From positions 1-6,615 of the forward strand of contig JAPPMR010000229.1 of assembly GCA_028818995.1 (NCBI GenBank): a DNA stretch of 6,615 nt, read 5' to 3'. Origin of the DNA: Candidatus Poribacteria bacterium (GTDB lineage Bacteria; Poribacteria; WGA-4E; WGA-3G). Below the pieces are notes generated by a model. The model saw only the letters and a program-made list of their open reading frames with translations. It did not search any database and was not told the DNA's origin. The translations under genes and the position numbers were made by a program. Below are positions 42 through 6,343 of this stretch, one piece after another; position 1 is the first letter of the stretch, and the number at the start of each line of letters is the position of its first letter.

Positions 42-950
42 TCAAGGTGTTACATCTTTCACACAACGAAATCCAAAATCGTTGTAATAAGTGGTCGTTG
101 GAACTTCACTGTTCCGAAGAGAAACCCGGACTACCACAGCACTACAGGTGCGGGAGCCACTACGTAACACACGATTAGACTGAATAGTTTCGGCATTTTC
201 TATTACCCATTCTATGTTGTTTGTGCTCGACATTGCATCCTTGCTGGGTAAAATCAGATTATTTTCAAGCCAGTCAACAAAGGTTGTTCCTAAAATTGGA
301 TTCTTGACAGGGGAATCTGAATAGAAGTTAGGTTCATGCGCGTCAAGACACCACTCCCACACGTTCCCTGCCATATCGTAGAGTCCATAAGCATTAGGAG
401 GGTAACTTCCGACAGGTGCATTCCATTCGTAACCATCATCGGCATTTTGATCAGCATGATTTGTATTCGAGTTTTTATCAGAAAAATTACATTGCGTTCC
501 ATCTGGTGGAGCGTCACCCCATGGATACATCTTACCTTTCAAACCGCCACGCGCTGCTTTCTCCCATTCTGCTTCTGTCGGCAACCGCTTACCTGCCCAT
601 TTTGCATACGCCATTGCATCATGCCAACTCACGCAGACTGCAGGATGTTTATCTGTTGGTGAATATTTGGAAACCCAAGGGAGTAACGGACGGTGTCCTG
701 TCTCCTTGACAAACTTCTTGTACTCACCAACGGTAACTTCGTGTATGTCCATATAGAATGCGTCCACGTAGACGGTATGTACAGGTCTTTCCTCAAGTTT
801 AAAATTATTACTTCCCATCTCAAACTCTCCTGCAGGAATCAGCACCATTCCTTCGGGTGCCTCCGCCTCTTTATCCTCAGCAGGTCCAAGTACGGAAATG
901 GCAAACGTGCATATCACAGTTAAAACTAAGAGAACCATAACATTTTTCAT
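42..950 (-). CDS. Secreted formylglycine-generating-enzyme (SUMF1/FGE-sulfatase) family protein
   Basis: The 302-residue product has an N-terminal hydrophobic segment (about residues 4-22), probably a signal peptide or membrane anchor. No lipobox is evident, since the only nearby Cys (C14) follows VI. The SUMF1 fold starts at M35 with GMVLIPAGEFEMGS and continues with HTVYVDAFYMDIHEVT (58-73), VSWHDAMAYAKWAGKRLPTE (107-126), GLYDMAGNVWEWC (189-201) and a final GFRC (293-296). True FGE oxidises a sulfatase cysteine to formylglycine using two cysteines five residues apart near the C-terminus. Here C269 matches the first and V274 replaces the second, and the usual RGGSW is RSGSR. Catalysis is therefore doubtful, and a paralogous binding or modifying role is as likely. 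No sulfatase gene is in the window. The ATG at 950 is chosen because it supplies the signal peptide, although its own Shine-Dalgarno is poor. It is last in the leftward group, 96 bases after ispG. Family call sure, function open. Confidence 0.86.
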   Translation of the reverse strand: MKNVMVLLVLTVICTFAISVLGPAEDKEAEAPEGMVLIPAGEFEMGSNNFKLEERPVHTVYVDAFYMDIHEVTVGEYKKFVKETGHRPLLPWVSKYSPTDKHPAVCVSWHDAMAYAKWAGKRLPTEAEWEKAARGGLKGKMYPWGDAPPDGTQCNFSDKNSNTNHADQNADDGYEWNAPVGSYPPNAYGLYDMAGNVWEWCLDAHEPNFYSDSPVKNPILGTTFVDWLENNLILPSKDAMSSTNNIEWVIENAETIQSNRVLRSGSRTCSAVVVRVSLRNSEVPTTTYYNDFGFRCVKDVTP

Positions 951-1046: not shown

Positions 1047-2159
1047 TTACGTTTCAGATGCTTGCCACTGTAGCGCTGCTTCTAATAGTGCATTCGCCAA
1101 AAATTCTGGGTTTACTTCGTCTTTCCCTCGGAAAGTACGGACCCGTTCACCACGAATCTTTAAAACGGCAAGTTCTTTTCCACCTAAATGGATCCCCACC
1201 TCAGCGTTACGTGTCTCACCAGGTCCATTTACTTCACACCCCATCACTGCTATATCCATGTTTATACCATGTTTTTCCAAAAGCTCCTCCGCAGCAGCAA
1301 CGATGTTTTCATAATTTGCATCAGGATCACCACGTCCACAGAAAGGACAAGAGATAACATTTAATATATTTTCTGCCATACCAAGCGCACGCAGCAGCTC
1401 TTTCGCAGTCAAAACCTCCTCAACAGGATCACCTGTGATAGAGATACGGATTGTGTCACCGATGCCTTCTAACAACAGTGTTCCGATCCCAAGTGTAGAT
1501 TTAACATGTGCACGTCGTGGTGTGCCAGCTTCTGTTACGCCAAGATGCAACGGATAACGAACTTTCGCTGAAAGCAATCGGTTCGCTTCTATCATCCGAA
1601 GTGGGTCGCTGGATTTGACGGAGATAGCAATATCTGTAAAGTCATGTTCTTCGCAGATATTGACATGCCGCATTGCGCTCTCTACTAACGCCTCTGCTGT
1701 CGGTGAGGGATACTTTTCCAAGAGGTCTTTTTCGAGAGAACCTTCATTAACACCGATACGAATCGGAATATTTGCGGCTTTTGCAGCGGACAACACCTGT
1801 GCAATCCGCTCTTCGTTGCCTATGTTGCCCGGATTGATGCGGACCTTTGCGACACCTGCATCCACTGCGGCGAGGGCAAATCTATAGTTAAAATGAATAT
1901 CGGACACAATCGGTACTGGAGAACGTTTTACTAATGTGCTAAGTGCTTTCGCGTCTTTTTCATCTGGCACTGCGACGCGGACAATCTGCGCGCCTGCTTC
2001 CGCGCACCGCTCAACTTGCGCTAACGTAGCATCGACGTTGTGCGTCAACGTGGTGGTCATCGTTTGAATAGAGATGGGACTGCCACCGCCAATTGGCACG
2101 GTGCCGACTTGTATTTTTTGTGTTGGTTTCCGATTATCAATCTGAATAAGTTCTTTCAT
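1047..2159 (-). CDS. ispG: 4-hydroxy-3-methylbut-2-enyl diphosphate synthase (IspG/GcpE)
   Basis: IspG reductively opens 2-C-methyl-D-erythritol 2,4-cyclodiphosphate to HMBPP, the penultimate step of the MEP isoprenoid pathway, in the cytoplasm. It uses a [4Fe-4S] cluster fed by flavodoxin or ferredoxin. The 370 residues match the compact bacterial form without the extra middle domain. The N-terminal TIM barrel runs from about residue 15 to 260, with PISIQTMTTT, VSDIHFNYRFA, KVRINPGNIG and RIGVNEGSL. The C-terminal cluster domain carries SCPFCGR (C271, C274) and MGCEVNGPGE (C308, with E315 as the fourth-ligand glutamate). All cluster ligands are present, so it should be active. The ATG at 2159 gives the usual N-terminus. 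No clear Shine-Dalgarno is visible before it, which suggests modest or leaderless-like initiation. It lies 79 bases after hisC on the same strand, with no obvious terminator between them. Confidence 0.97.
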   Translation of the reverse strand: MKELIQIDNRKPTQKIQVGTVPIGGGSPISIQTMTTTLTHNVDATLAQVERCAEAGAQIVRVAVPDEKDAKALSTLVKRSPVPIVSDIHFNYRFALAAVDAGVAKVRINPGNIGNEERIAQVLSAAKAANIPIRIGVNEGSLEKDLLEKYPSPTAEALVESAMRHVNICEEHDFTDIAISVKSSDPLRMIEANRLLSAKVRYPLHLGVTEAGTPRRAHVKSTLGIGTLLLEGIGDTIRISITGDPVEEVLTAKELLRALGMAENILNVISCPFCGRGDPDANYENIVAAAEELLEKHGINMDIAVMGCEVNGPGETRNAEVGIHLGGKELAVLKIRGERVRTFRGKDEVNPEFLANALLEAALQWQASET

Positions 2160-2238: not shown

Positions 2239-3348
2239 CTACCTTGTGCCTACAAGTGGTGTAAGTGCTTCAAGGAAACGTTCATTTTCCTCTTGTTTGC
2301 CGATTGTGACCCGAATTGCGTCAGGATAGCCGTAGCCCGCCATTGCACGTACGATAACCCCTTTTTTCATCATGGCATCTGCTAAATCTGCACCGGGTTG
2401 GTTAACAAAAACCATGATAAAATTTCCTTCTGTTTTGATATAACGAAGACCTAATTTATCAAATGCAGCGTATAAGAAAGTCTTACCAGATGCATTCAGC
2501 TTTTGGCTTTCCTTAACGTGATCGGTATCTTTGAGTGATGCACGTGCTGCTGCTTGTGCGACCGCATTACAGTTAAACGGTTGCCGGACAGGGTTCATCG
2601 TTGCGATGATGGTGGGTGGCGCAATACCGTAACCAATCCGCAAGCCTGCGAGACCGTAGATTTTGGAAAATGTTCGGGTGATAATGAAATTACGTTCTTC
2701 CATGACGTAAGGCAATGTCTGTGGATAGTCGGAATGTGAGACATATTCATAATACGCTTCGTCAAAGATTACTAATACATTTTCTGGCACTTGCGCCATG
2801 AATTGTGCTGTTTCTGCAGCTGTAACCATCGTTCCGGTCGGGTTGTTTGGATTTGCAATAAAGATAGCCTTTGTTTTATCTGTTATTGCCGCTGCCATTG
2901 ATGGCAAGTGGTGTGTATCGTTTTGCATCGGCACAACAACGTGCGTTGCCCCACAAACTGTGGTAACGAGTTTATAGACGACAAACGCACCTTCTGCATA
3001 AATCACTTCGTCCCCAGGACCGAGGTAGGTCTCACCGACAAGTTGCAGCACCTCATTAGAACCGTTTGTTAAAATCAATTGTTCTTCGGTAACACCAAGA
3101 TGTTTAGCTAAATCTGCTTTGAGATAATAGGCATTTCCGTCAGGATAAAAATGTGCCTGTTTGGCACTTTCTTGAATTGCTTGCATCGCTAAAGGAGAGG
3201 GACCGAGCGGGTTTTCATTTGATGCTAACTTGATAATATCAGAAATACCGAGTTCGCGTTTGACCTCTTCAATCGGTTTACCACCCTGATATGCCTTAAT
3301 GGTTTCAATACCGGGTTTCGGGGTTAATTTTTTCTTTTTTATAATCAC
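2239..3348 (-). CDS. hisC: Histidinol-phosphate aminotransferase (HisC family, class I/II PLP aminotransferase)
   Basis: HisC transfers the amino group of glutamate to imidazole-acetol phosphate in histidine synthesis. Relatives can also act on aromatic keto acids. The 369 residues are full length. Visible landmarks are KLASNENPLGPSP (40-52), the FYPDGNAYYLK substrate loop (67-77), NPNNPTG (166-172, PLP-contacting Asn), FDEAYYEY (195-202, D196 and Y199 at the cofactor), the Schiff-base lysine K229 in RTFSKIYGLAGLRIGYG, and R346 in DAIRVTIG for the substrate carboxylate. It starts with GTG at 3348. AGGAA (3357-3353) lies four bases upstream, and the next in-frame Met is residue 55, so GTG is well supported. 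A lysine run (residues 4-7) near the start comes from a poly-T stretch. It is first in the leftward group and has its own promoter. No other his gene is present, so a broader aromatic aminotransferase role cannot be excluded. Confidence 0.9.
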   Translation of the reverse strand: MIIKKKKLTPKPGIETIKAYQGGKPIEEVKRELGISDIIKLASNENPLGPSPLAMQAIQESAKQAHFYPDGNAYYLKADLAKHLGVTEEQLILTNGSNEVLQLVGETYLGPGDEVIYAEGAFVVYKLVTTVCGATHVVVPMQNDTHHLPSMAAAITDKTKAIFIANPNNPTGTMVTAAETAQFMAQVPENVLVIFDEAYYEYVSHSDYPQTLPYVMEERNFIITRTFSKIYGLAGLRIGYGIAPPTIIATMNPVRQPFNCNAVAQAAARASLKDTDHVKESQKLNASGKTFLYAAFDKLGLRYIKTEGNFIMVFVNQPGADLADAMMKKGVIVRAMAGYGYPDAIRVTIGKQEENERFLEALTPLVGTR

Positions 3349-3461: not shown

Positions 3462-3490
3462 TTGCTATCCATTAGTAATTGTGGTATAAT
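3462..3490 (+). promoter_or_regulatory. Sigma70-type promoter for the ferredoxin-bioA operon
   Basis: TTGCTA (3462-3467, four of six matches to TTGACA) is followed by a 17-base spacer and a perfect TATAAT (3485-3490), preceded by TGG as an extended -10. The expected start is near 3497, giving a short leader. Its -35 lies one base from that of the leftward promoter. Confidence 0.78.
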
Positions 3491-3508: not shown

Positions 3509-3515
3509 AAGGAGG
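3509..3515 (+). promoter_or_regulatory. Ribosome binding site of the ferredoxin gene
   Basis: AAGGAGG is a near-complete anti-Shine-Dalgarno match, 11 bases before the ATG at 3527. The spacing is slightly long, but the site supports this start, which also begins exactly at the conserved ferredoxin N-terminus. Confidence 0.8.
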
Positions 3516-3526
3516 CGAAGATACGG

Positions 3527-4822
3527 ATGGCATACATAATTTGTGAACCTTGTATAGACGTAAAGGACACTGCCTGTGTTGAGGCTTGTCCAGTGGATTG
3601 CATACATACCGTTGAAGGCGAAAATCAACTCTACATTGATCCCGGTGTGTGTATTGACTGTGCAGCGTGTGTTCCCGCATGCCCTGTGGAAGCAATCTAT
3701 ATGGAAAGCGAAGTGCCAAGCCAGTGGGAATCATTTATTGATATTAACAGTAAGTTTTTTGAAACATTTGTTTATCCTGAAACTGAAGATGACGAAGCTG
3801 ACGGTACGGGACAAGGTAAGGGGAAAGAACAAGGTGTACCAGAAGAATTTGTGCAGCTGCCAGATGCAGTCGGTTCATCCTTGCGTGCGCCTTTGGGTTT
3901 GCTAACCATGCTCGGACAACCGATCTTGGGTGCGTTCTCAGCAAGTTTCAAAGCACAGTTAGAAGAGATGGCAGGAAATCCTCGTGTTTTCAGTGCTGCT
4001 GTTTCAACTGGGATTAACAGTTTAATCAATCTAATTCTGTATCCACTTGTACTTTTCTTCATTCAAACAAGAGGGGATATTGCCAATCTCTTTACGCCTG
4101 CAGGCAATTTTATGATCTTTTTAGGCATAGTTATTGCTATTGCCGAAGGTATGTTTCGTTTTAAAGCAGAACTCACTTCAACACCTGACGATGAACAAGC
4201 TCGCTATGGTGCTTCTTTCTACGGATGGATACCCTCACTCTTTGCTACGCCAGTTCTCAAAGCGATGCGTTCTGTTTTAGTAAAAGACCCCGCAGCACAG
4301 CGAACAACAATGCCTGGTGCCGTTCAGACTGACGGTTCAATTTTCTCCGATGATATAAAAGAACGATACCGCCGTTACGGAATGGTTAATCGCGTTTTGG
4401 AAACTGCAGATTACTATCAGATTGAGATTGAGTTTCCACGATGGGTGCCAAATTCGTCTGCCAAAGAAACTTTTGAGCTTCCAGATAGAATGCCACATTA
4501 CGATTATGAAGTTTATCTCAGTTCTCCTTATGCTTCTTCGGATGCTTCTCCTGCGCCAGGGAGCGTTGTAACAGTGCAAACCCAGCTTCCCAGAAATCCC
4601 GATAAACCACAACAATTCGCCGACCCACGGTTTGAGAAGGTCGTTGGGCGCACCAGTTCATTTCCTGATGGCTTTAGGAATATCTTTCCTATTCCGGGAC
4701 AACCCGAAGATTTTCACGCAAAATATAGGAATAGGATGCTTGAAATTGTTGTGCCGAAGATAGGAACGTATGATGAACTGGCGTTAGAGCAACCTGTTCA
4801 CTATGCAAAGCTTAAGGGATAG
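3527..4822 (+). CDS. Seven-iron ferredoxin fused to membrane helices and an Hsp20/alpha-crystallin-like C-terminus
   Basis: Residues 1-80 form a Thermus/Azotobacter-type [3Fe-4S][4Fe-4S] ferredoxin. By alignment from memory with Azotobacter FdI, C9, C17 and C52 should hold the 3Fe cluster, and C21, C42, C45 and C48 the 4Fe cluster. V12 stands where FdI has C11, and C6 and C25 are extra. Such ferredoxins normally stop near 80-110 residues; this one is 431. An acidic/Gly-Lys linker follows (84-105), then two hydrophobic segments (about 160-179 and 194-210) that could make a hairpin leaving both ends in the cytoplasm. A variable stretch follows (215-285). The tail (about 286-411) reads like an alpha-crystallin domain: VLETADYYQIEIEFP, then FRNIFPIPGQPEDFHAKY and LEIVVPK, where sHsps have F-LP...I-A-Y-NGVL-I-VPK. 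The usual Gly of NGVL is Arg (R403). The ferredoxin call is firm. The domain fusion is inferred and its role unknown. It is the first gene of the operon with bioA. Confidence 0.88.
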   Translation: MAYIICEPCIDVKDTACVEACPVDCIHTVEGENQLYIDPGVCIDCAACVPACPVEAIYMESEVPSQWESFIDINSKFFETFVYPETEDDEADGTGQGKGKEQGVPEEFVQLPDAVGSSLRAPLGLLTMLGQPILGAFSASFKAQLEEMAGNPRVFSAAVSTGINSLINLILYPLVLFFIQTRGDIANLFTPAGNFMIFLGIVIAIAEGMFRFKAELTSTPDDEQARYGASFYGWIPSLFATPVLKAMRSVLVKDPAAQRTTMPGAVQTDGSIFSDDIKERYRRYGMVNRVLETADYYQIEIEFPRWVPNSSAKETFELPDRMPHYDYEVYLSSPYASSDASPAPGSVVTVQTQLPRNPDKPQQFADPRFEKVVGRTSSFPDGFRNIFPIPGQPEDFHAKYRNRMLEIVVPKIGTYDELALEQPVHYAKLKG

Positions 4823-6179
4823 AGAGAAGTTAGTCGCTTGGGATAAAGATTACCTCTGGCATCCTTTCACACAAATGCGTGATTGGTTGGCAGAGGAACC
4901 GATTATTATTGAACGCGGCGAAGGGGTATATCTGATTGATATTGATGGAAATCGGTATCTTGATGGGATTGCCTCTATGTGGACAAATGTTCACGGACAC
5001 AACCACCCTGAACTGAACGCTGCCCTTAAAGCACAGTTAGATCAGATTGCCCATTCCACACTGCTCGGTTACAGCAACATTCCAGCAATTCAACTTGCCC
5101 AGAAACTTGTTGAAATTACACCATCAGGACTCAACAAAGTTTTTTACTCCGATAACGGTTCAACTGCGGTTGAAGTTGCACTGAAAATGGCGTATCAGTA
5201 CTGGCAGCATAAAGGACAACCGCAACGAAACCTTTTTGTTCACTTTGATAAGGCATACCACGGCGACACAGTTGGTGCTATGAGTGTTGGTGGTATTGAA
5301 AGTTTCCATAGCACCTTCAGTTCCCTCCTTTTTAAAAGTATACGCGTATCCGTTCCTGAAACCTATACACCCCCTAAATCTGTAGATACACCCAAGAATC
5401 TTTCTGCCGAGTTAGTAAAAACGCATTGGCTCAATGCAGTTGAGCGTGTCCTTTCCGAACATTCCAAACAGATTGCAGGAATCATTTTAGAACCGTTGAT
5501 ACAGGGTGCAGGGGGCATGTTAATTTCTCCAAATGGGTTTCTGAAGGAACTCGCTGCATTAGCAAAAAAGTGCGAAACTCTGCTGATTGTTGATGAGGTG
5601 ATGACGGGATTGGGACGCACCGGAAAAATGTGGGCATGTGAACATGAAAACGTTACGCCTGACCTTTTATGCACGGCAAAAGGACTCGCAGCTGGCTATT
5701 TACCACTCGCAGCAACTTTAACCACCGATGAAATCTATAATGCCTTTCTTGGCGAATATCATGACCTCAAGACTTTTTTTCATGGTCACACCTTTACAGG
5801 AAACCCGTTAGCTTGCGCTGTTGCGTTAGAAAATATAGCAATTTTTGAACGTGAGAATCTGCTTGATCGCCTCCAAACGACTATCAATCACTTCAACAAA
5901 CGTCTTCAGGAATTCTATGTGCTGCCACATGTCGGTGATGTGCGTGTCTGCGGCATAGCTGCGGGTATAGAATTAATGAAAAACCCAGAGACCAATACTC
6001 CTTATCCCTTTGAGGAAAAAGTAGGTATCCGGGTATGCAAAGCTGCGCTTGCTCAAGGGGCAATACTCCGTCCGCTTGTTAATACTGTTGTCCTGATGCC
6101 GCCTTTACAAATATCAATCTCAGAATTAGATTCTCTCCTTGATATTACCTACCACGCTATTTCCGAAGTAACAGGATAA
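4803..6179 (+). CDS. bioA: Adenosylmethionine (or lysine)-8-amino-7-oxononanoate aminotransferase (BioA)
   Basis: BioA aminates KAPA to DAPA in biotin synthesis, a cytoplasmic class III PLP aminotransferase. The 458 residues are full length. Landmarks are LWHPFTQM (18-25), SMWTNVHGHNHPEL (58-71), FYSDNGSTAVEVALKMAYQYW (114-134; G119 and S120 for the PLP phosphate), AYHGDTVGAMSVG (151-163), VDEVMTGLGRTGKMWACE (263-280; D264 at the pyridine nitrogen), Schiff-base lysine K293 in TAKGLAAGYLPLA, and HGHTFTGNP (327-335). ATG 4803 lies inside the end of the ferredoxin gene, overlapping by 20 bases. It is preferred because the conserved N-terminus begins about 13 residues later and the next Met is residue 25. 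It has little Shine-Dalgarno of its own, which points to translational coupling. From memory it resembles the Bacillus subtilis lysine-using enzyme closely, so the amino donor is uncertain. No bioB, bioD or bioF is in the window. Confidence 0.92.
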   Translation: MQSLRDREKLVAWDKDYLWHPFTQMRDWLAEEPIIIERGEGVYLIDIDGNRYLDGIASMWTNVHGHNHPELNAALKAQLDQIAHSTLLGYSNIPAIQLAQKLVEITPSGLNKVFYSDNGSTAVEVALKMAYQYWQHKGQPQRNLFVHFDKAYHGDTVGAMSVGGIESFHSTFSSLLFKSIRVSVPETYTPPKSVDTPKNLSAELVKTHWLNAVERVLSEHSKQIAGIILEPLIQGAGGMLISPNGFLKELAALAKKCETLLIVDEVMTGLGRTGKMWACEHENVTPDLLCTAKGLAAGYLPLAATLTTDEIYNAFLGEYHDLKTFFHGHTFTGNPLACAVALENIAIFERENLLDRLQTTINHFNKRLQEFYVLPHVGDVRVCGIAAGIELMKNPETNTPYPFEEKVGIRVCKAALAQGAILRPLVNTVVLMPPLQISISELDSLLDITYHAISEVTG

Positions 6180-6263: not shown

Positions 6264-6343
6264 TCTGTAGGAGCGACCTTGAATCAACGCCAAATGCGCC
6301 TATGGCATTTGACGGGTCGCGACCGGGAGGTCGCTCCTACAGA
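6264..6343. repeat. REP/REPIN-like imperfect palindromic element
   Basis: Two perfect 16-base inverted arms, TCTGTAGGAGCGACCT (6264-6279) and its complement (6328-6343), enclose 48 bases. Inside is a second hairpin, CAAATGC (6291-6297) against GCATTTG (6305-6311), extended by CG/CG beyond one mismatch. The right half, read leftward, is GTAG (6340-6337) followed by GCGACC (6334-6329), loop TCCC and GGTCGC (6324-6319). That is the GTAG-plus-hairpin design of bacterial REP sequences, and two such units head to head make a REPIN. The left half keeps the GTAG head, but its local hairpin has decayed. GGTCGCGACC (6315-6324) is itself palindromic. It probably folds in the bioA 3' transcript. No T-run follows, so it is not a classic terminator. 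Copy number cannot be seen here. Confidence 0.75.

Follow-up and report, generated by a model that had tools for sequence, protein, structure and literature searches.

Alpha-crystallin domains are ATP-independent chaperones. Biotin synthase (BioB) carries out a radical-SAM sulfur insertion, in which a reduction is needed for each cleavage of SAM and the cluster that donates the sulfur must be rebuilt. How radical-SAM enzymes are reduced in the cell is still described as enigmatic (PMC10470005). In actinobacteria, BioB needs an Fe-S accessory protein, BsaP, which is small, has three cysteines and is encoded among the biotin genes, mostly after bioB (PMC11099021). A precedent for a CS domain in a redox protein is Ncb5or (CYB5R4, PDB 6mv2), an animal protein with haem and flavin domains; its CS domain joins two redox domains (PMC9706631). 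Ncb5or serves as a precedent for such a part, and membership of the same family as the protein described here is not implied.

The window (the whole stretch of 6,615 nt analyzed here) encodes a protein in which a 7Fe-type ferredoxin, a membrane segment and an alpha-crystallin-like domain are joined. The comparison with BsaP concerns how the proteins may work: both are Fe-S proteins encoded among biotin genes. The fusion protein, however, has 431 residues and an eight-cysteine ferredoxin, it is encoded next to bioA or bioW, and bioB is at least 84 kb away in the nine cases where the distance was read. Titles and abstract starts of the open-access literature yielded no description of this fusion. 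The layout appears to be undescribed as far as searched, to be built from known parts and to have a strong genomic link to biotin.

We propose, with a probability of roughly 0.48, that this is a membrane-held electron carrier with an Hsp20-like domain for docking or dimerization, which serves biotin synthesis in Poribacteria, BioB being the likeliest step. The N-terminal ferredoxin would carry electrons, the central hydrophobic segment would keep the protein at the inner face of the membrane, and the Hsp20-like domain would dimerize or dock a partner rather than act as a general holdase. Biotin synthesis would be its task in Poribacteria. BioB is the probable redox step because no other biotin enzyme requires electrons and repair of a cluster. 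The architecture, the predicted fold, the conservation, the gene linkage and the wider family were computed and are described below.

The locus, the ferredoxin and the membrane segment

Five open reading frames with matches to known or conserved families are found in the window (Table 1). Its closest relatives are from Candidatus Poribacteria, and the protein from the nearest contig is 97% identical. The start of bioA overlaps the 3' end of the fusion gene by 20 nt. The promoter-like pattern occurs at three sites in the window where 0.8 are expected, and is not evidence of function. The first gene codes for a formylglycine-generating-enzyme-like protein with a hydrophobic N-terminus, which is possibly secreted. 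On the 3' side of bioA, at window positions 6264-6343, there is an inverted repeat whose 16-bp arms match perfectly (TCTGTAGGAGCGACCT / AGGTCGCTCCTACAGA) and are 48 nt apart; it may be a dispersed palindromic element.

Table 1. Features of the window (nucleotide positions; residues are those of the fusion protein).
Feature	Position	Strand	Basis or remark
FGE-sulfatase-domain protein	42-950	-	Pfam/ORF
ispG	1047-2159	-	
hisC	2239-3348	-	
Promoter-like TTGCTA-17-TATAAT, 36 nt ahead of the fusion ATG	3462-3490	+	Pattern search
RBS-like AAGGAGG ahead of the fusion ATG	3509-3515	+	By reading the sequence
Fusion gene (its parts are listed below)	3527-4822	+	431 aa, single frame
Ferredoxin domain, residues 1-80	3527-3766	+	Eight conserved Cys
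Charged linker, residues 81-118	3767-3880	+	pLDDT <50 for 76-115; variable in alignment A1
Weakly hydrophobic segment, residues 119-137	3881-3937	+	19-residue Kyte-Doolittle mean 1.13; model helices 123-129, 131-134
Transmembrane helix 1, residues 157-181	3995-4069	+	AlphaFold helix; hydropathy 1.66 at 161-179
Transmembrane helix 2, residues 191-211	4097-4159	+	AlphaFold helix; hydropathy 1.80 at 188-206
Weakly hydrophobic segment, residues 230-252	4214-4282	+	Hydropathy 1.17-1.19 at 233-254; model helix 234-246
Alpha-crystallin-like domain, residues 273-412	4343-4762	+	Profile comparison, predicted structure, conservation
Family signature E-R-Y-R-R-Y-G, residues 279-285	4361-4381	+	E279, R283, Y284, G285 in 44/44 domains
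L-A-L triplet, tail residues 418-420	4778-4786	+	Position comparable to that of I-x-I in sHSPs; weak
bioA, adenosylmethionine-8-amino-7-oxononanoate transaminase	4803-6179	+	NCBIfam TIGR00508, 554.5 bits (cut-off 405)

A preliminary description of the locus had noticed a seven-iron cysteine pattern in the first 80 residues, and this reading stands. The pattern C-x7-C-x3-C-x3-C ... C-x2-C-x2-C-x3-C is present, and its cysteines (C9, C17, C21, C25, C42, C45, C48 and C52) are kept in all 45 proteins of alignment A1, which consists of the window's protein, 40 of the 120 listed proteins (53-member list, 88% identity) and proteins from four loci. FdxA-type 7Fe ferredoxins are the closest solved chains (2v2k over residues 3-84, E 2.7e-27; 1bc6, E 1.2e-26). 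They resemble the start of the fusion strongly and with all eight cysteines, but the best-matched ones have only 77-107 residues, whereas the fusion has 350 more. The Pfam model Fer4 scores 33 bits (gathering cut-off 21.1), and the NCBIfam model FdxA_Actino covers residues 1-87 (E 2e-31). Since the FdxA equivalog cut-offs are missed (FdxA_Actino 108.4 of 125 bits, FdxA_Protbact 84.5 of 135, FdxA_fam 41.5 of 65), we call this a 7Fe-type ferredoxin domain and not FdxA.

The two hydrophobic segments assigned previously (residues 160-179 and 194-210) coincide with AlphaFold helices and hydropathy peaks. Two weaker segments (about 119-137 and 230-252), which were not part of that assignment, may be interfacial or re-entrant. 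As the number of segments is even, two strong ones or four with the weak ones, the ferredoxin and the C-terminal domain should be on the same side of the membrane. This is probably the cytoplasmic side for both, because the sequence opens directly with the ferredoxin and has no visible signal peptide. The full-length model is uninformative on the packing of the domains, as residues 1-59 (in the ferredoxin part) and 257-281 have pLDDT values below 50.

The C-terminal domain and its relatives in Planctomycetota

The tail (residues 286-411) had been described as alpha-crystallin-like, and computation points the same way. A beta-sandwich of seven strands is predicted (residues 287-410), and the full-length and the domain-only AlphaFold models agree on it. 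In Foldseek searches against the PDB, with the full model as well as with the domain alone, 48 of the 50 listed rows are small heat-shock proteins (sHSPs) and two are CS domains. An hhalign comparison of the domain profile with 15 Hsp20 proteins from Poribacteria gave an E value of 3.2e-7 and a score of 47.9. A chance likeness to Hsp20 was rejected, as the best of 200 column shuffles scored 21.7 and a reversed profile 15.0. A blind search of Acidobacteriota genomes with a domain profile (A6, with the corrected cut for L209 and without L210 and L211) retrieved two true canonical Hsp20 proteins. Homologues keep the domain. Based on profile comparison (E 1e-8), AlphaFold/Foldseek and the blind genome search, the C-terminal domain is assigned to the alpha-crystallin superfamily, the fold itself being predicted.

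The sequence of the domain is far from that of the described Hsp20 proteins (PF00011), with which it shares the beta-sandwich, homology at the profile level and an I-x-I-like triplet in the tail (hydrophobic-x-hydrophobic in 23 of 23 main-clade rows). Unlike Hsp20, it shares its chain with a membrane segment and a ferredoxin, and has its own signature, E-R-x-R-R-Y-G. In a Pfam search with the single sequence, the tail of the window's protein had no match, and HSP20 stayed below its Pfam cut-off throughout, with one of 28 domains reaching E 0.058 and two of 45 full proteins at best E 0.072. Nor were sHSPs retrieved when the PDB was searched with sequence profiles: the alignment A3, which comprises 28 of the available domains, gave four matches to FtsX and eS4 with E values of at least 0.35, and the A6 profile gave eS4 as its best match (E 0.032).

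We take the hallmark motif of Hsp20 to be A-x-x-x-n-G-v-L at strands 8-9. This pattern is found in all 15 Hsp20 proteins from Poribacteria in the comparison set (the 17 matches found, less L120 and L123). In the 28 domains, the column of the hallmark glycine has arginine (17) or lysine (11). The pattern was also flagged in three deep-branch rows but, judged by eye, at strands 4-5 and not 8-9. Because the hallmark glycine is absent, the domain is not filed as a small heat-shock protein; a canonical sHSP was rejected for this reason and for the scores below the Pfam cut-off. Eight residues (E279, R283, Y284, G285, P308, Y325, P380 and F383) are invariant in 44 of 44 domains, 28 from Poribacteria and 16 from Planctomycetota, of which rows L209-L211 still carried a polyferredoxin tail.

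The relatives in Planctomycetota were not part of the preliminary description. The extension profile matched at least 16 of 392 Planctomycetota genomes, over the C-terminal domain only. Counts for Planctomycetota and Acidobacteriota are lower bounds, as up to 5 or 11 candidates were scored per genome. The domains of the two phyla match each other in hhalign with an E value of 6.6e-25 and a score of 157.7 (best of 100 shuffles 25.8), and are clearly homologous. Ferredoxin sequence is present in all 16 Planctomycetota frames, although a contig end leaves only the ferredoxin tail in L197. Two layouts occur. In 14 of the 16, RnfB-like polyferredoxins of 380-399 residues (e.g. from L198-L211), the domain lies between a single-cluster [4Fe-4S] ferredoxin and four more [4Fe-4S] motifs. 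In the other two, it is preceded by a charged helix and, before that, a 7Fe-type ferredoxin (L196, 288 residues; L197, cut by the contig end). In contrast to the Poribacteria fusion, no transmembrane hairpin is seen by eye. None of 14 Planctomycetota proteins exceeds the Pfam HSP20 cut-off. A protein search with the Planctomycetota domain found 165 proteins, the best 120 of which have 324-437 residues and ferredoxin Pfam domains and, where the source names them, are called ferredoxin, 4Fe-4S binding protein or RnfB.

With the A6 profile, at least 3 of 396 Acidobacteriota genomes match, one with a polyferredoxin relative and two with ordinary Hsp20. In the polyferredoxin relative (L212, genome G798), the N-terminal ferredoxin lies outside the open frame. 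Its presence in Acidobacteriota could be due to transfer or to a binning error.

The E-R-x-R-R-Y-G domain thus seems to define a ferredoxin-linked family of alpha-crystallin domains that occurs in Poribacteria and Planctomycetota in three layouts. If a branch of this superfamily is tied to electron carriers, the fold has gained another job, which would show how it can be reshaped. The domain had been suggested to be a built-in holdase that guards the oxygen-sensitive ferredoxin clusters; it might also guard a partner enzyme. In favor of a holdase, the predicted fold is that of alpha-crystallin, and in both phyla the domain is joined to ferredoxins. The missing hallmark glycine and the strong conservation of family-specific residues argue against it, as does the finding that all eight genomes searched encode ordinary Hsp20 separately. 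The sequence data lend the holdase no support, and we consider it very unlikely. Docking or dimerization is the likelier role because the domain occurs with ferredoxins in three layouts, conserves residues of its own and has no sHSP hallmark. The original suggestion that the protein is an electron carrier tethered to the membrane, perhaps with a docking partner, has gained support, with electron transfer and docking as its putative functions.

Distribution of the fusion in Poribacteria

A protein search returned 239 homologues at E <= 1e-3; among the 120 listed, 119 have 407-457 residues and one has 372. Where the proteins listed in this search and in that with the Planctomycetota domain carry a source name, they are called ferredoxin, 4Fe-4S binding protein, RnfB, PreA subunit or hypothetical protein. 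With such names, and with an alpha-crystallin-like domain that has no Pfam match over the cut-off, the family is hidden by automatic annotation.

The extension profile (membrane segment and C-terminal domain) matches 73 of 84 Poribacteria genomes and is fused to a ferredoxin in 72 of them, in frame in 71 and in G078 as two contig-end pieces with the ferredoxin on the other piece. An assembly chimera or frame accident was rejected given this recurrence, and the fusion, as had been asked of it at the outset, is conserved across genomes. Each genome has a single extension match, except for the two pieces in G078 and an extra fragment in G034. The latter (contig C45, 64756-65055; profile positions 115-212) precedes the complete gene by about 1.7 kb. 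The extension is absent from eleven genomes (G004-G008, G012, G014, G025-G027 and G042).

A scan with one genome per species found 95 relatives, of which the best 80 were kept, corresponding to 78 loci. The fusion is encoded at 47 loci, all from Poribacteria (45 complete, two cut by contig ends), while the 31 loci from other phyla code for stand-alone ferredoxins of 78-101 residues. The Poribacteria-only profile A2, used without a positive control, matched none of 245 Fidelibacterota genomes and none of nine genomes from other phyla, results that carry little weight.

One genome deviates. G009 codes for a protein of 311 residues (L132:9538-10473) that has the membrane and alpha-crystallin-like parts but no ferredoxin, which this extension protein has lost or never had. 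As the part is kept without a ferredoxin, it must have some role of its own. In a tree of the extension only (without L135), G009 joins the deep branch with 100/100 support, the branches being long. In a tree of the ferredoxin domain, the deep-branch fusions are apart from those of the main clade; the fusion may have arisen once or twice, as a single origin was not rejected (p-AU 0.068, or 0.44 when stand-alone paralogs of 139-148 residues are included). These paralogs, extra ferredoxins with their own C-terminal extension, occur in four deep-branch genomes (L082, L179, L180 and L181) and are close kin of the ferredoxin in the fusions of the same genomes. In G001 (L184, contig C2), a stretch of 3.6 kb contains several stand-alone ferredoxin genes, with three 77-residue frames and four matches.

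Biotin genes next to the fusion

The linkage to biotin genes extends beyond the preliminary description. Of the 84 Poribacteria genomes, 70 have a true bioA, scoring above the TIGR00508 cut-off, and 67 of these also have the extension. In all 67, bioA is directly downstream on the same strand, with a spacing of 41-234 nt between the profile ends (median 73). In the species scan, bioA follows the fusion in 44 of 47 loci and, by tblastn coordinates, overlaps it in 15 of the 44. Two of the other three loci are cut by contig ends, and in L047 the gene ends 281 nt before the contig end. The upstream neighbors vary: 39 of the 47 loci extend at least 5 kb upstream, and ispG and hisC are found in six of these. 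When the neighbors of 22 loci were compared, bioA occurred in 17, and every other family in at most 11.

A second biotin gene, bioW, was found in six of the 84 genomes, once over the cut-off and five times below it (E 3e-55 to 3e-22; the match in G010 is partial). For three of the candidates, the best NCBIfam match is 6-carboxyhexanoate-CoA ligase, under its naming cut-off. In five of the six genomes, bioW is directly upstream of the extension gene on the same strand; in G009, the 311-residue protein begins 4 nt after the bioW stop codon. The sixth genome, G012, lacks the extension gene; there, the frame after bioW resembles, by eye, an oxidoreductase gene of G009, where it comes next after the extension. 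None of the five deep-branch genomes with the gene has a bioA over the cut-off, and none of the 67 genomes with bioA beside the fusion has a bioW match. The deep-branch domains are 33-37% identical to that of the window.

BioB is encoded (over the cut-off) in 71 of the 84 genomes: 66 have the extension and bioB, seven only the extension, five only bioB and six neither (Fisher p 0.0013, uncorrected for phylogeny). The seven are perhaps due to incomplete assemblies. The bioB gene is not adjacent to the fusion in the nine same-contig cases read (G003, G024, G029, G047, G054, G081, G082, G083 and G084). In the five genomes with bioB only (G012, G025, G026, G027 and G042), BioB must work without the fusion; G025-G027 also have bioA. 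As the genomes are related, the linkage counts are not independent events.

In most Poribacteria, the fusion gene is linked to biotin genes, and its product may be an accessory devoted to biotin synthesis. It could instead be a general membrane-associated ferredoxin with a structural domain, whose gene hitch-hikes in operons of bioA and bioW and has no function in biotin synthesis. The five genomes with bioB only fit this explanation, and so do the Planctomycetota homologues. At their 16 loci (2.1-7.0 kb each), bioA, bioW and bioB were not found (tblastn, E <= 1e-3), and no neighbor is widely common, at most seven loci sharing any outside family. Nevertheless, we regard it as unlikely. Hitch-hiking is made less probable by the association with two different biotin genes in two branches with such divergent domains, while the outer neighbors change. 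Moreover, stand-alone ferredoxins, which are possible general carriers, also occur in genomes whose matches were read.

A further alternative retains the biotin function but moves it to an earlier point: the protein might serve the making or activation of the pimeloyl chain at the membrane and not BioB, for example as donor to an oxidative chain-cleaving enzyme. In the deep branch, the gene comes directly after bioW, which specifies the pimeloyl-CoA-forming enzyme; the protein is membrane-bound, where acyl chains are; and G009 keeps the membrane part at bioW even without a ferredoxin. On the other hand, the product of bioA acts later in the pathway, and 67 genomes keep the gene next to bioA with no match to bioW. 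An early role is quite improbable.

Service to BioB remains the preferred reading. With its link to biotin genes in most of a phylum, this ferredoxin offers a concrete and testable candidate for the reduction of a radical-SAM enzyme. It is tempting to speculate, though somewhat doubtful, that the E-R-x-R-R-Y-G family has left protein folding to become a standing ferredoxin partner in at least two phyla (plus one Acidobacteriota genome), in three layouts, and that its member in Poribacteria is a membrane ferredoxin dedicated to biotin synthesis that gives BioB electrons or cluster repair.

At a single locus (L178:4961-6865, genome G042), bioB is directly followed by a putative electron-transfer subunit gene. 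The start of its product looks like what we take to be a flavin/2Fe-2S electron-transfer subunit of the PyrK type.
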